Shown: piece by piece, positions 58,949 to 63,359 of the stretch
Layout of the letters: each line of letters opens with the position of its first letter
Numbering within the stretch: the stretch's first letter is position 1
NCBI GenBank assembly: GCA_947475245.1
Contig: CANJLW010000004.1
Location: 124,001 to 188,000 of the forward strand
DNA from: Acetobacteraceae bacterium
GTDB lineage: Bacteria > Pseudomonadota > Alphaproteobacteria > Acetobacterales > Acetobacteraceae
DNA: 64,000 bases
Direction of reading: 5' to 3'
Notes under the pieces: generated by a model
Told to the model about the DNA's origin: nothing
Databases searched by the model: none
The model's input: the letters and a program-made list of their open reading frames with translations, nothing else
Translations under genes and position numbers: made by a program

Positions 58949-61786
58949 ATGCCCCTGGTCCAGGAAATCGACTACGGCACCAAGCAGATCGCGGCCGCCA
59001 CCATGGTGACGCTGACCATCGACGGCCATGCCGTGACCGTGCCCGAAGGCACGTCGATCATGCGCGCGGCGATGGAACACGGCACCAAAATTCCGAAACT
59101 CTGCGCCACGGACTCGCTCGACAGCTTCGGCAGTTGCCGCATGTGTCTGGTGGAGATCGAGGGACGCGCGGGTACACCAGCGTCCTGCACGACATTGGTC
59201 GCGCCCGGCATGAAGGTGCGCACGACCACCGATAAGCTGCGCAAGCTCCGCAAGGGGGTGATGGAGCTTTACATCTCTGACCATCCGCTGGATTGCCTGA
59301 CCTGTTCGGCCAACGGCAATTGCGAATTGCAGGACACGGCGGGCGAGGTCGGGCTGCGCGAAGTGCGCTACGGGTATGAGGGCGAAAACCACCTGGAAGC
59401 CGTGGTCGATGGATCGAACCCGTATTTTCAGTTCGACTCCTCGAAATGCATCGTCTGCTCCCGCTGTGTGCGGGCGTGCGAGGAAGTGCAGGGCACCTTC
59501 GCGCTGACCATTCAGGGGCGCGGGTTTGACTCCAAGGTCTCCGCGGGGATGGGCGAGTCGTTCCTGGGCAGCGAATGCGTATCGTGCGGTGCCTGCGTGC
59601 AGGCCTGTCCGACGGCGACGCTGATGGAAAAATCCGTGGTCGAGATCGGCCAGCCCGAGCATTCCGTCGTCACCACCTGCGCCTATTGCGGCGTCGGATG
59701 CAGCTTCAAGGCGGAAATGCGCGGCGATACCGTCGTGCGCATGGTGCCGTGGAAAGACGGCAAGGCCAATCACGGCCATTCCTGCGTCAAGGGCCGCTTT
59801 GCCTGGGGGTATGCCAACCACCCCGACCGCATCCTGAACCCGATGGTGCGCGCCAAGACCACCGATCCCTGGCGCGAAGTCACCTGGGACGAGGCGATCG
59901 CCCATGTCGCCAGTGAGTTCAAGCGCATCCAGGCATCGTACGGCAAAGGCGCGATCGGCGTCATCACGTCGTCGCGCTGCACCAGCGAGGAGACCTATCT
60001 GGTGCAGAAACTGGCTCGCGCCGGTTTCGGCAACAACAACACCGACACCTGCGCGCGCGTCTGCCACTCCCCCACCGGCTATGGGCTGGGCAAGACCTTC
60101 GGCACCTCCGCCGGGACGCAGAATTTCGATTCGGTCGAGCATTCCGACGTCATCGTTGTGATCGGCGCCAATCCCACCGACGGGCATCCGGTGTTCGCCT
60201 CCCGCATGAAAAAGCGCCTGCGCGCGGGTGCCAAGCTGATCGTGATCGACCCGCGCCGGATCGATCTGGTGCGGACCCCGCATGTGGAGGCCGCTTATCA
60301 CCTGCCGCTGCGTCCGGGCACCAACGTGGCAATGCTGACGTCCCTGGCGCATGTCATCGTGACCGAAGGGCTGGTCGACACCGCTTTTGTGACCGAGCGT
60401 TGCGACGCGGAGGCCTTCGCCGATTGGGCGGCCTTCGTCGCCGAACCGCGCAACAGTCCAGAAGCACTGCAATCCGCCACCGGTGTCGACCCGGCGCTGG
60501 TGCGCGGCGCGGCGCGCCTGTTTGCCACCGGCAGCAACGGGGCGATCTATTACGGGCTGGGGGTGACGGAACACAGCCAGGGCAGCACCGCCGTCATGGC
60601 GATCGCCAACCTCGCGATGGCGACGGGCAATATCGGGCGTGTCGGCGTGGGCGTAAATCCCTTGCGTGGTCAGAACAACGTCCAGGGCGCCTGCGACATG
60701 GGCAGCTTCCCGCACGAGTTGCCGGGCTATCGCCATGTCTCCGGCCCCGCGGTGCGGGCGATCTATGAAAAAGAATGGGGCGTCACGCTCGACCCGGAAC
60801 CCGGACTGCGCATTCCCAACATGCTCGACGCCGCGGTGGAGGGCACGTTCCGCGGCCTTTACGTGCAGGGCGAGGACATTGCGCAATCCGATCCCGACAC
60901 GAAGCACGTCGCGGCCGGTCTGGCGGCGATGGAATGTCTGGTGGTGCACGATTTATTCCTGAACGAAACGGCGAACTACGCTCATGTCTTCCTGCCGGGT
61001 TCGACCTTCCTGGAAAAGGACGGCACGTTCATCAACGCGGAACGGCGGATCAATCGGGTACGCGAGGTCGTCGCCCCGCGTGCCGGGTTGGCGGACTGGG
61101 AGGTGACCCAGGCGATCGCCAACGCCATGGGCTATAAGATGGACTATGCGCACCCGTCGGAGATCATGGACGAAATCGCGCGCACGACCCCCACCTTTGC
61201 CGGAGTGAATTACGGCAAGCTGGAAATGGGCGCCGTGCAGTGGCCCTGCAACGACGCCGCACCGGACGGCACGCCGATCATGCACGAAAGCGGCTTCGTG
61301 CGCGGCATGGGCAACTTCGTCATCACCGAATACGTGCCGACCGACGAGAAGATCGGCCCACGCTTTCCACTCTTGCTGACCACCGGGCGCATTCTGTCGC
61401 AATACAATGTGGGCGCGCAGACCAGACGCACCTCCAACGTCGTGTGGCATCCGGAGGATGTGCTGGAGATTCACCCGCACGACGCCGAACAGCGCGGCGT
61501 GAAGGACGGCGACTGGGTGCGTTTGGCCAGCCGAGCGGGGGAGACGACGCTAAGGGCGGCGGTGACGGAACGGGTGGCACCGGGTGTTGTTTACACCACG
61601 TTCCACCATCCCGTGACACAGGCGAACGTGGTCACCACGGAGTTTTCCGACTGGGCAACGAACTGTCCGGAATACAAGGTGACGGCGGTGCAGATTTCTC
61701 CTTCAAACGGCCCCAGCGCCTGGCAAGACGACTACAGCCAGATGGCCGCGCAAAGCCGTCGGATCGAGACGGTTCCGGCGAAGTGA
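58949..61786 (+). CDS. fdsA: Formate dehydrogenase alpha subunit (Mo-bis-PGD)
   Basis: N-terminal 2Fe-2S and 4Fe-4S motifs; CAYCGVGCSFKAEMRGD; CARVCHSPTGYGLGKTFGTSAGTQNF. Confidence 0.96.
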   Translation: MPLVQEIDYGTKQIAAATMVTLTIDGHAVTVPEGTSIMRAAMEHGTKIPKLCATDSLDSFGSCRMCLVEIEGRAGTPASCTTLVAPGMKVRTTTDKLRKLRKGVMELYISDHPLDCLTCSANGNCELQDTAGEVGLREVRYGYEGENHLEAVVDGSNPYFQFDSSKCIVCSRCVRACEEVQGTFALTIQGRGFDSKVSAGMGESFLGSECVSCGACVQACPTATLMEKSVVEIGQPEHSVVTTCAYCGVGCSFKAEMRGDTVVRMVPWKDGKANHGHSCVKGRFAWGYANHPDRILNPMVRAKTTDPWREVTWDEAIAHVASEFKRIQASYGKGAIGVITSSRCTSEETYLVQKLARAGFGNNNTDTCARVCHSPTGYGLGKTFGTSAGTQNFDSVEHSDVIVVIGANPTDGHPVFASRMKKRLRAGAKLIVIDPRRIDLVRTPHVEAAYHLPLRPGTNVAMLTSLAHVIVTEGLVDTAFVTERCDAEAFADWAAFVAEPRNSPEALQSATGVDPALVRGAARLFATGSNGAIYYGLGVTEHSQGSTAVMAIANLAMATGNIGRVGVGVNPLRGQNNVQGACDMGSFPHELPGYRHVSGPAVRAIYEKEWGVTLDPEPGLRIPNMLDAAVEGTFRGLYVQGEDIAQSDPDTKHVAAGLAAMECLVVHDLFLNETANYAHVFLPGSTFLEKDGTFINAERRINRVREVVAPRAGLADWEVTQAIANAMGYKMDYAHPSEIMDEIARTTPTFAGVNYGKLEMGAVQWPCNDAAPDGTPIMHESGFVRGMGNFVITEYVPTDEKIGPRFPLLLTTGRILSQYNVGAQTRRTSNVVWHPEDVLEIHPHDAEQRGVKDGDWVRLASRAGETTLRAAVTERVAPGVVYTTFHHPVTQANVVTTEFSDWATNCPEYKVTAVQISPSNGPSAWQDDYSQMAAQSRRIETVPAK

Positions 61787-61795
61787 CCATTGCCT

Positions 61796-62066
61796 CTCCT
61801 TGTGGGAGAGATCGGAGTGTTCGGCGACACCCTCACCCGCGCCGCTTCGCGTCGCGACCTCTCCCGCAAGCGGGAGAGGTAAGTCCATCCAACACCTCCT
61901 CCTCTGGGAGAGGTTGGAGTGCGTCAACGCTCCGGGTGAGGGATGGTCAACACCCTCACCCGCGCCGCTTGGCGTCGCGACCTCTCCCGCAAGCGGGAGA
62001 GGTAGGGCTGTCCAACACCTCTCCCTCTGGGAGAGGTCGGAGTGCGTCAGCGCTCCGGGTGAGGGA
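61796..62066. repeat. array of REP-like palindromes; includes two direct copies of a 51-bp unit (61830-61880 and 61953-62003)
   Basis: ccctcacccgcgccgctt[c/g]gcgtcgcgacctctcccgcaagcgggagaggt; perfect 11-bp-arm palindrome acctctcccgc-aa-gcgggagaggt at 61857-61880 and 61980-62003; acctctccc-tct-gggagaggt at 62017-62037. Confidence 0.92.
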
Positions 62067-62399
62067 AGTGGCCTCGACAGTCAAAGCATACCAAATCCGA
62101 TCTTTAACCAGATCGGGCTGGAACAAAACGTCGGCGTTCCAAAACCGCAGCACTTGCCAACCTTCCGCCGCCAACCACTCATCGCGAACCCTATCAGTCA
62201 GCGAGTCCACATGCCCGCTGCCATCCAACTCAATCACCAATCGGTGGGAAAGGCAGGAAAAATCCGCGATATACCGCCCAATCGGATGCTGCCGCCGGAA
62301 TTTGATCGTCCCGAACTGCCGATTGCGCAGCAGCGCCCAGAGCGTCCGTTCAGCAGGCGTCGGGTTGGCCCGCATCTGGCGAGCAAATGAATCTGCCAT
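61956..62399 (-). CDS. DUF559-type (Vsr/restriction-endonuclease-like fold) nuclease with repeat-encoded C-terminal tail
   Basis: MADSFARQMRANPTPAERTLWALLRNRQFGTIKFRRQHPIGRYIADFSCLSHRLVIELDGSGH...WQVLRFWNADVLF; tail LTRSADALRPLPEGEVLDSPTSPACGRGRDAKRRG is translated repeat DNA. Start could be 62420. Confidence 0.88.
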   Translation of the reverse strand: MADSFARQMRANPTPAERTLWALLRNRQFGTIKFRRQHPIGRYIADFSCLSHRLVIELDGSGHVDSLTDRVRDEWLAAEGWQVLRFWNADVLFQPDLVKDRIWYALTVEATSLTRSADALRPLPEGEVLDSPTSPACGRGRDAKRRG

Positions 62400-62440
62400 G
62401 CGGGAACCATACGACGCCAATCCTTCAGGAACGGTTAACC

Positions 62441-62491
62441 ACCTCTCCCGCTTGCGGGAGAGGTCGCGACGCGCAGCGGCGCGGGTGAGGG
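62441..62491 (-). repeat. inverted copy of the 51-bp palindromic unit
   Basis: Reverse complement ccctcacccgcgccgctgcgcgtcgcgacctctcccgcaagcgggagaggt differs from 61830-61880 at one base. Confidence 0.93.
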
Positions 62492-62533
62492 CTTACCCCC
62501 CCGCCCCCAACCATGACCGGACCGCCCCCCCCC

Positions 62534-62557
62534 ACCTCTCCCACCCGCGGGAGAGGT
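62534..62557 (+). promoter_or_regulatory. palindrome overlapping fdhD Shine-Dalgarno
   Basis: ACCTCTCCC-acccgc-GGGAGAGGT, 9-bp stem; GGGAGAGG then taaaa then ATG at 62562. Confidence 0.6.
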
Positions 62558-62561
62558 AAAA

Positions 62562-63359
62562 ATGCCAACCACCTCCGTCACCCGCACCGTCTGGCGCGAC
62601 AACACCGCGTCCTCCGGCGCGCGCGTCCTGCCCGAGGAAACCCCGATCGCGCTGACCTACAACCGCGCCACGCACGCGGTCATGCTCGCCTCGCCCGCCG
62701 ATCTTGAGGACTTCGCGGTTGGCTTCAGTCTCGCGGAAGGTATTATCGCATCCGCCGCCGACATTGAAACGCTCGATGTTGTTACTGTCCCGGACGGTAT
62801 CGAACTGCGTATGGATCTGATCGGCCCGCGCCTGGATGCGTTGACGCGGCGACAGCGGCGGTTGGCGGGGCCGAGCGGGTGTGGGTTGTGTGGGATGGAC
62901 AGTTTGGCGGGGGCGATCAGGCCGACGCCCCAAATCGTTTCAAATGCCCACTTCACGCCGGATCACATCGCAACGGCCATGGCGTCAATGCCGCCGGCGC
63001 AGACGCTGAACCACGCGACCCGCGCCGTGCATGCCGCCGCGTTCTGGACGCCGACCCAAGGGCTGGTCGCATTGCGCGAGGATGTCGGTCGGCACAACGC
63101 TCTGGACAAGTTGGCGGGCGCATTGGCGCGACAGGGTATCCCCGCGCATGATGGGCTGCTGCTGCTGTCCAGCCGGGTTTCCATCGAAATGGTGCAGAAA
63201 GCCGCGACCCTGGGCGCGCCGGTCATCGTCGCCGTCTCCGCGCCCACCGCGCTGGCGGTGCGCGTCGCGGACGCAGCCGGCATCACCCTGATCGGCATCG
63301 CGCGTCAGGATGGGTTTGAGGTTTTTACCCACACGGAAAGGGTGCGACATGTCGCCTGA
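62562..63359 (+). CDS. fdhD: Formate dehydrogenase accessory sulfurtransferase
   Basis: EETPIALTYNRATHAVMLASPADLEDFAVGFSLAEGII; GCGLCGMDSL; REDVGRHNALDKLAGAL. Confidence 0.95.
   Translation: MPTTSVTRTVWRDNTASSGARVLPEETPIALTYNRATHAVMLASPADLEDFAVGFSLAEGIIASAADIETLDVVTVPDGIELRMDLIGPRLDALTRRQRRLAGPSGCGLCGMDSLAGAIRPTPQIVSNAHFTPDHIATAMASMPPAQTLNHATRAVHAAAFWTPTQGLVALREDVGRHNALDKLAGALARQGIPAHDGLLLLSSRVSIEMVQKAATLGAPVIVAVSAPTALAVRVADAAGITLIGIARQDGFEVFTHTERVRHVA

Follow-up and report, generated by a model that had tools for sequence, protein, structure and literature searches.

In REPIN/RAYT systems (REPtrons), one small nuclease-type gene is flanked by palindromes, gene and repeat variants are matched, hairpin-forming pairs of inverted palindromes are dispersed through the genome, and the distribution is spotty. 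The enzyme, RAYT, is a HUH tyrosine transposase (PF01797), and RAYTs have been reported to occur as a single copy and to be incapable of mobilising themselves (PMC3116915). Short palindromes in inverted pairs are also common in Alphaproteobacteria as CGTC-tagged or untagged REPs with no known transposase, and the survey which reported CGTC repeats as lacking a dedicated transposase asked whether untagged palindromes accompany specific DNA-binding proteins (Di Nocera 2013, PMC3733652). Among nucleases, the EDxHD homing endonuclease I-Bth0305I (3r3p) is encoded in mobile DNA, and the Vsr mismatch endonuclease (1vsr/1cw0) and Caulobacter VsrA share their fold class with the DUF559 proteins, which are called Vsr-like.

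The DUF559 system described here works like REPIN-RAYT with an unrelated enzyme. It has all of the REPIN/RAYT features listed above, but its enzyme is of the PD-(D/E)XK/EDxHD type (PF04480), its palindromes show no conserved GTAG tag, and the cassette itself moves and can be multi-copy. Unlike the tagged REPs, its palindromes are without CGTC and have pyrimidine/purine arms. With I-Bth0305I it has the catalytic fold and core motif in common, whereas the DUF559 gene is palindrome-bracketed and encodes a protein of ∼115 aa without extra DNA-binding modules; DUF559 cassettes lie intergenically between intact genes, not inside an intron or intein. In contrast to Vsr, no cytosine methyltransferase accompanies the cassette, and palindromes are found instead. 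Escherichia coli YcjD and Neisseria gonorrhoeae NGO0050 (PDB 3hrl) belong to the same family, and similar palindrome units, although partly decayed, occur near both genes. DUF559 is a known domain, while its link to palindromes appears unreported: we found no paper on it in the open-access literature, and closed-journal work could exist. With a probability of roughly 0.7, we read the DUF559 gene together with its outer inverted palindromes as one mobile cassette and the gene-less palindrome pairs as its non-autonomous, REPIN-like derivatives; the protein would recognise its own palindrome variant and cut, and the host would repair.

The insertion between fdsA and fdhD

The window, i.e. the whole stretch of 64,000 nucleotides analysed here, belongs to a genome of 5.2 Mb in 89 contigs (G000) with one strong DUF559 gene. 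It contains an fds formate dehydrogenase operon, in which fdsA (58949-61786) and fdhD (62562-63359) are separated by a 775-bp insertion. It carries seven palindromes related to one another and a single DUF559 gene, which is read from the minus strand (Table 1). The initial annotation had described this gene as bracketed by 51-bp units, two direct (61830-61880 and 61953-62003) and one inverted (62441-62491), and this arrangement was recovered exactly, the direct units being 98% and 96% complementary to the inverted copy. Each unit does contain the 11-bp-arm palindrome claimed for it; the loop is 2 nt long (ACCTCTCCCGC-AA/TT-GCGGGAGAGGT). Four extra palindromes had been listed as well; those at 62017 and 62534 were found again, and those at 61796 and 61894 proved to be only imperfect relatives. 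The 24-mer palindrome has four matches in the window and the pattern CCTCTCCC-N0-14-GGGAGAGG has five, versus none of either in 100 shuffles, and a chance origin of the window palindromes is excluded.

The presence of two direct 51-bp copies is due to a 123-bp tandem duplication. Sorted by orientation, the array consists of three gene-less inverted pairs and one half unit beside the gene, with palindromes pointing outward and GGGTGAGGG/CCCTCACCC boxes pointing inward.

Table 1. Coordinates of features in the fdsA-fdhD insertion (window numbering)
Feature	Coordinates	Strand	Remarks
Entire fdsA-fdhD insertion	61787..62561		775 bp; same junction 8-11 bp in four congeners
Gene-less inverted pair 1 (left palindrome imperfect): palindrome ... 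CCCTCACCC-stem-loop-palindrome	61793..61880		DNA fold z -3.3
Tandem duplication of 123 bp bearing the direct 51-bp copies	61815..62060 (61815-61937, 61938-62060)		89% identical
24-bp palindrome, 11-bp arms	61857..61880		sequence and shuffle control
Gene-less inverted pair 2: palindrome-stem-loop-GGGTGAGGG ... CCCTCACCC-stem-loop-palindrome	61894..62003		DNA fold z -5.7
DUF559 nuclease gene	61956..62399	-	ATG at 62399; ORF open also from TTG at 62420
24-bp palindrome, 11-bp arms	61980..62003		sequence and shuffle control
Half unit adjoining the gene 3′ end: palindrome outward, GGGTGAGGG inward	62017..62065		likely left end of the cassette
DUF559 domain (PF04480) with conserved E-x-D-G-x-x-H...D core	62082..62393	-	profile match
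Gene-less inverted pair 3, gene 5′ side: palindrome-stem-loop-GGGTGAGGG ... palindrome (second inner box degenerate)	62441..62557		DNA fold z -3.9
24-bp palindrome, 11-bp arms, reverse complement of 61857..61880 and 61980..62003	62441..62464		
24-bp palindrome, 9-bp arms	62534..62557		sequence and shuffle control

The DUF559 identity of the gene was confirmed by the PF04480 profile (E 1.6e-36, 124.9 bits, cut-off 20.6). Residues E64, D66, H70 and D76 are invariant across 44 sequences. The predicted structure of the protein (pLDDT 88) retrieved 3hrl (DUF559, 6e-7), 3r3p (I-Bth0305I, 7e-5) and Vsr (1e-2) in Foldseek, and sequence profiles agree. The protein has a nuclease fold of the Vsr/EDxHD type, in line with the PD-(D/E)XK-like fold proposed for it earlier, and the conserved acidic and histidine residues are all intact. 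Due to these invariant catalytic residues and fold matches, the window nuclease is probably active. The final ∼40 codons of the ORF (61956-62081) consist of the palindromic repeats at its 3′ side, which are a source of repeat-derived protein tails. Cassettes inspected in detail contain no second gene and no transposase ORF. A reading as a defence system was dropped, as PADLOC gave no convincing match.

A known RNA family was also considered for the window units. In Rfam, four end units within 61829-62066 match the full model of whalefall-1 (RF01762) below threshold (19-24 bits where 37 are needed, E 0.0017-0.058), and 20 related loci gave no match at threshold. The match was kept as a lead, namely that the whalefall-1 ‘RNA’ may be the end unit of a DUF559/palindrome DNA element.

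Palindromes beside DUF559 genes and across genomes

To define the association at the gene, 180 DUF559 loci were chosen on protein similarity only, and a locus was called both-sided if a pyrimidine-arm palindrome occurred on each side within 260 bp. Both-sided palindromes were present at 98 of the 180 loci versus 1 of 704 neighbouring ORFs (Fisher 2e-78), and random placement gave 2 in 2380. Because many of the loci are orthologous, independence was checked by synteny clusters, and 68 of 128 independent clusters were both-sided and 102 had at least one palindrome. None of these hairpins was near the gene at 36 of the 180 loci, which counts against the cassette model. At 100 class-sample loci picked by HMM score only, hairpin density was 5-8/kb up to 100 bp from the domain versus 0.13-0.47/kb at 250-5000 bp. 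The same hairpin pattern was found at 80 further named loci from Alpha-, Beta- and Gammaproteobacteria, Desulfobacterota and Nitrospirota, and eight further named records (E. coli ycjD, the N. gonorrhoeae NGO0050 homologue, two Deinococcus, Azospirillum, S. meliloti, Sphingomonas and Synechocystis) all have such units, partly degenerate, near the gene.

The two sides of a cassette also resemble each other. Palindrome similarity between left and right was 0.85 within a locus versus 0.48 between loci, with inverted orientation prevailing 43 to 8, and 36 of 64 dispersed palindromes were paired, <160 bp apart. Across 135 units, conservation does not extend outward past the palindrome, where no conserved tetranucleotide tag was detected over 30 nt, but continues inward as a G-rich box. 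The general cassette boundary is the palindrome alone, with the G-rich box on its gene-ward side, and the 51-bp unit, which had been taken as the bracket, does not generalise. The palindromes are intergenic, GC-rich and strong hairpins, as would be expected if they were transcription terminators or mRNA hairpins which happen to surround a small gene. Left-right matching of variants and the near absence of both-sided palindromes from other ORFs refute terminators or mRNA hairpins alone, and together with dispersed copies and presence/absence differences they make this explanation very improbable.

Association was likewise strong at the genome level. Among 387 genomes of the class, at least five CCCTCYCCC palindromes were present in 62 of 95 genomes with a strong DUF559 gene versus 15 of 292 without (odds ratio 35, P = 5e-33), and 27 of the 34 families holding both kinds of genome show the same direction (within-family permutation P = 5e-5). 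Several DUF559 genomes without the CCCTCYCCC variant have a different one. Among 58 relatives, the genomes of the window's genus in which a strong standalone DUF559 gene was detected are G000, G012, G015, G022, G023 and G024; copies of the CCTCTCCC pattern in these genomes numbered 52, 0, 57, 30, 39 and 3, respectively, and 0-2 in the remaining congeners. The DUF559 gene of G012 is interrupted by a stop codon.

Conversely, five palindrome-rich genomes (G019, with 131 palindromes, G026, G053, G227 and G406) have no detected full DUF559 gene. Some assemblies are fragmented, and G037 retains a decayed DUF559 copy; the five exceptions fit enzyme loss, an assembly gap or an additional enzyme. The 131 palindromes of G019 are of the CCCCCTCCC type, and the only DUF559-like domain there is part of a longer, unrelated protein (L078), so the enzyme may be lost, unassembled or different. 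An ordinary RAYT/HUH-driven REPIN system in which DUF559 is incidental would have the same layout of a gene, flanking palindromes and dispersed inverted doublets (PMC3116915). PF01797 was not found in G000, G015, G022, G023, G024 or G019, which contradicts RAYT as the mobiliser in this genus, and the palindromes carry no conserved outer tag, so we regard such a system as hardly credible.

In the genome of the window itself, the 52 CCTCTCCC-N0-14-GGGAGAGG palindromes compare with none for the reversed control pattern. The 51-bp unit was counted genome-wide, as the initial annotation had proposed: the palindrome is dispersed and 88-90% relatives of the unit occur at ∼16 further places, mostly inside one ∼200-bp MITE, but near-exact units (96-98%) are restricted to the fdsA-fdhD locus. 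This MITE has roughly 20 copies with ends CAGGGTGATCGCATTTGG, 10-bp target duplications (e.g. AGGTCGTGGG, CCCGCCGCAT) and a palindrome pair inside, and it carries ∼27 of the 52 palindromes. The MITE-borne palindromes were probably spread by another transposase, hence we do not count them as DUF559 events. Copies of the MITE are present at many contig ends (L050:2150-2400, L052:2200-2420, L049).

Genome comparison also reveals that gene-side and dispersed variants are matched. The cassettes of G015, G022, G023 and G024 bear a CCCCCTCCC palindrome instead of CCTCTCCC, and these genomes contain 54, 31, 42 and 229 copies of CCCCCTCCC, respectively, versus 0-6 in other congeners except G019. Agreement extends to the loop in G023, where CCCCCTCCC-CTTGA-GGGAGGGGG, the palindrome of the cassette, is more frequent than any other dispersed form in the matches listed for this genome. 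The prediction that genomes with CCTTCYCCC cassettes should be those rich in CCTTCYCCC was tested; ten such genomes had a median of 16 dispersed copies versus 0 in 63 other DUF559 genomes (P = 1e-6). Likewise, CCCTCY cassettes predict dispersed CCCTCY copies (P = 2e-10), and G188 has 387 CCTTCY and no CCCTCY copies, matching its own cassettes. This matching would be explained most simply if the nuclease recognised the palindrome and thereby drove movement.

Occupied and empty sites

Mobility of cassettes and gene-less pairs is apparent from comparison of orthologous junctions, and the polymorphism between empty and occupied sites that the initial annotation had proposed to look for was found at two of them. 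The fdsA|fdhD junction measures 8-11 bp in G002, G009, G013 and G020, contains the DUF559 insertion in G000, and holds in G015 a gene-less pair of that genome's own variant. The M3 peptidase|ABC1 kinase junction measures 4-9 bp in seven congeners; G015, G022, G023, G024 and G427 carry a DUF559 cassette there, which widens it to ∼460-560 bp, and G420 has a 63-bp remnant with one palindrome. In G188 (-189..+162) and G109 (-91..+83), homology between paralogous cassettes of the genome starts and stops exactly at the palindromes. The sister species G342 and G403 differ by a gene-less pair, which only G342 has, and two Deinococcus species (L397, L401) carry a DUF559 cassette in the same hpa operon but not at the same junction. 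Together with the association and the variant matching, these sites support the earlier proposal of a REP-like mobile cassette in which the nuclease is dispersed with its palindromes, and no outcome that the initial annotation had named as refuting it was observed.

At the fdsA|fdhD junction of G006 (L266), G010 (L262), G017 (L261), G018 (L279) and G021 (L264), CGTC-like repeats (CGTCATGGCCGGGC...) are present and no strong DUF559; two repeat families alternate at this one hot spot. Orthologous 10-kb pairs and longer contigs revealed no consistent target-site duplication or fixed target, and none was seen at clean junctions. Two longer palindrome-bearing inserts (L300 versus L312; L323 versus L341) have direct flanking repeats of 7-8 bp (TCATGAA, CTGATGGT), which may be a target duplication or a deletion scar.

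The E. coli ycjD-fabI intergenic region (L405, L406, L407) contains three degenerate palindrome units downstream of ycjD. E. coli genomes carry a 41-bp unit from there at 18 places each (median), and the ycjD-fabI query is at least 80% covered at one place in 3334 of 5426 complete E. coli genomes. An empty ycjD site was sought in E. coli, and in the ycjD-less strains that were opened an efflux operon occupies the place, so these are not clean empty sites. The ycjD-side repeat may be connected with ‘boxC’, a long-known repeat of E. coli.

In several clades the DUF559 gene is kept at one conserved locus (Variovorax to Comamonas), with stable syntenic copies in Burkholderiales and Sphingomonadales, hence the gene is not always mobile. 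These stable copies and the Vsr-like fold would suit a nuclease that serves the host or limits the palindromes (repair, anti-REP control or VSP-like repair) and is kept beside its substrate without mobilising it; a role in mismatch repair has been proposed for the Caulobacter DUF559 protein VsrA, which causes an SOS response (PMC12907096). Yet occupied and empty sites, palindrome-bounded paralogues and inverted, variant-matched ends are marks of a mobile unit, and a controlling enzyme should reduce copy number, whereas gene presence goes with more copies; we consider this role improbable. Immobility in some clades also bears on the possibility that another enzyme in trans moves palindromes and cassettes, with DUF559 as cargo or as a passenger homing into existing palindrome pairs. 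The palindrome-rich genomes without detected DUF559 speak for such an enzyme, and gene conversion into gene-less pairs could create cassettes. However, no other gene is present in the cassettes inspected in detail, RAYT as the obvious candidate is absent from the key genomes, and matching of gene-side and dispersed variants with within-family co-occurrence is hard to obtain from a free cargo, so that we find such an enzyme unlikely, if worth keeping in mind.

A putative mechanism and its meaning

What the sequences show is a mobile unit with palindromes as its limits and a set of gene-less derivatives that share its variant; the part played by the nuclease in moving them is inferred. For a DUF559 cassette that moves by its own nuclease, the most likely version would be a homing- or excision-like process without a transposase. 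The DUF559 protein would recognise its own palindrome variant, as a duplex, an extruded cruciform or a single-stranded hairpin, and would cut at or near it. The host would then repair the break or re-join the excised hairpin, by which cassettes and gene-less pairs would be copied to new intergenic sites. Two routes may be envisaged. In one, which has been proposed for RAYT, the enzyme would cut at the hairpins and the excised DNA would be inserted anew; in the other, as in homing, target palindromes would be cut and the cassette copied into them by repair.

The DUF559 unit looks like overlooked mobile DNA because its gene lies between matching palindromes of which close copies are scattered in the genome. 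Beyond this locus, we lean slightly towards the view that standalone DUF559 proteins are dedicated mobilisers of bacteria-wide untagged palindromic repeats in Proteobacteria, Desulfobacterota, Nitrospirota, Deinococcota and Cyanobacteria, including those near E. coli ycjD, and so represent a Vsr/EDxHD-driven class of mobile elements without transposase or integrase. If the nuclease is indeed the mobiliser, these cassettes would be a new class of mobile element and would join RAYT/REPIN and classical MITEs as a third kind of mobile DNA with small palindromes. DUF559 proteins are candidate enzymes for abundant palindromic repeats to which no enzyme had been assigned, and a testable function is offered for a family still named ‘unknown function’, of which the member structure 3hrl was solved in 2009 without context. 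E. coli strains differing in ycjD are a ready model.
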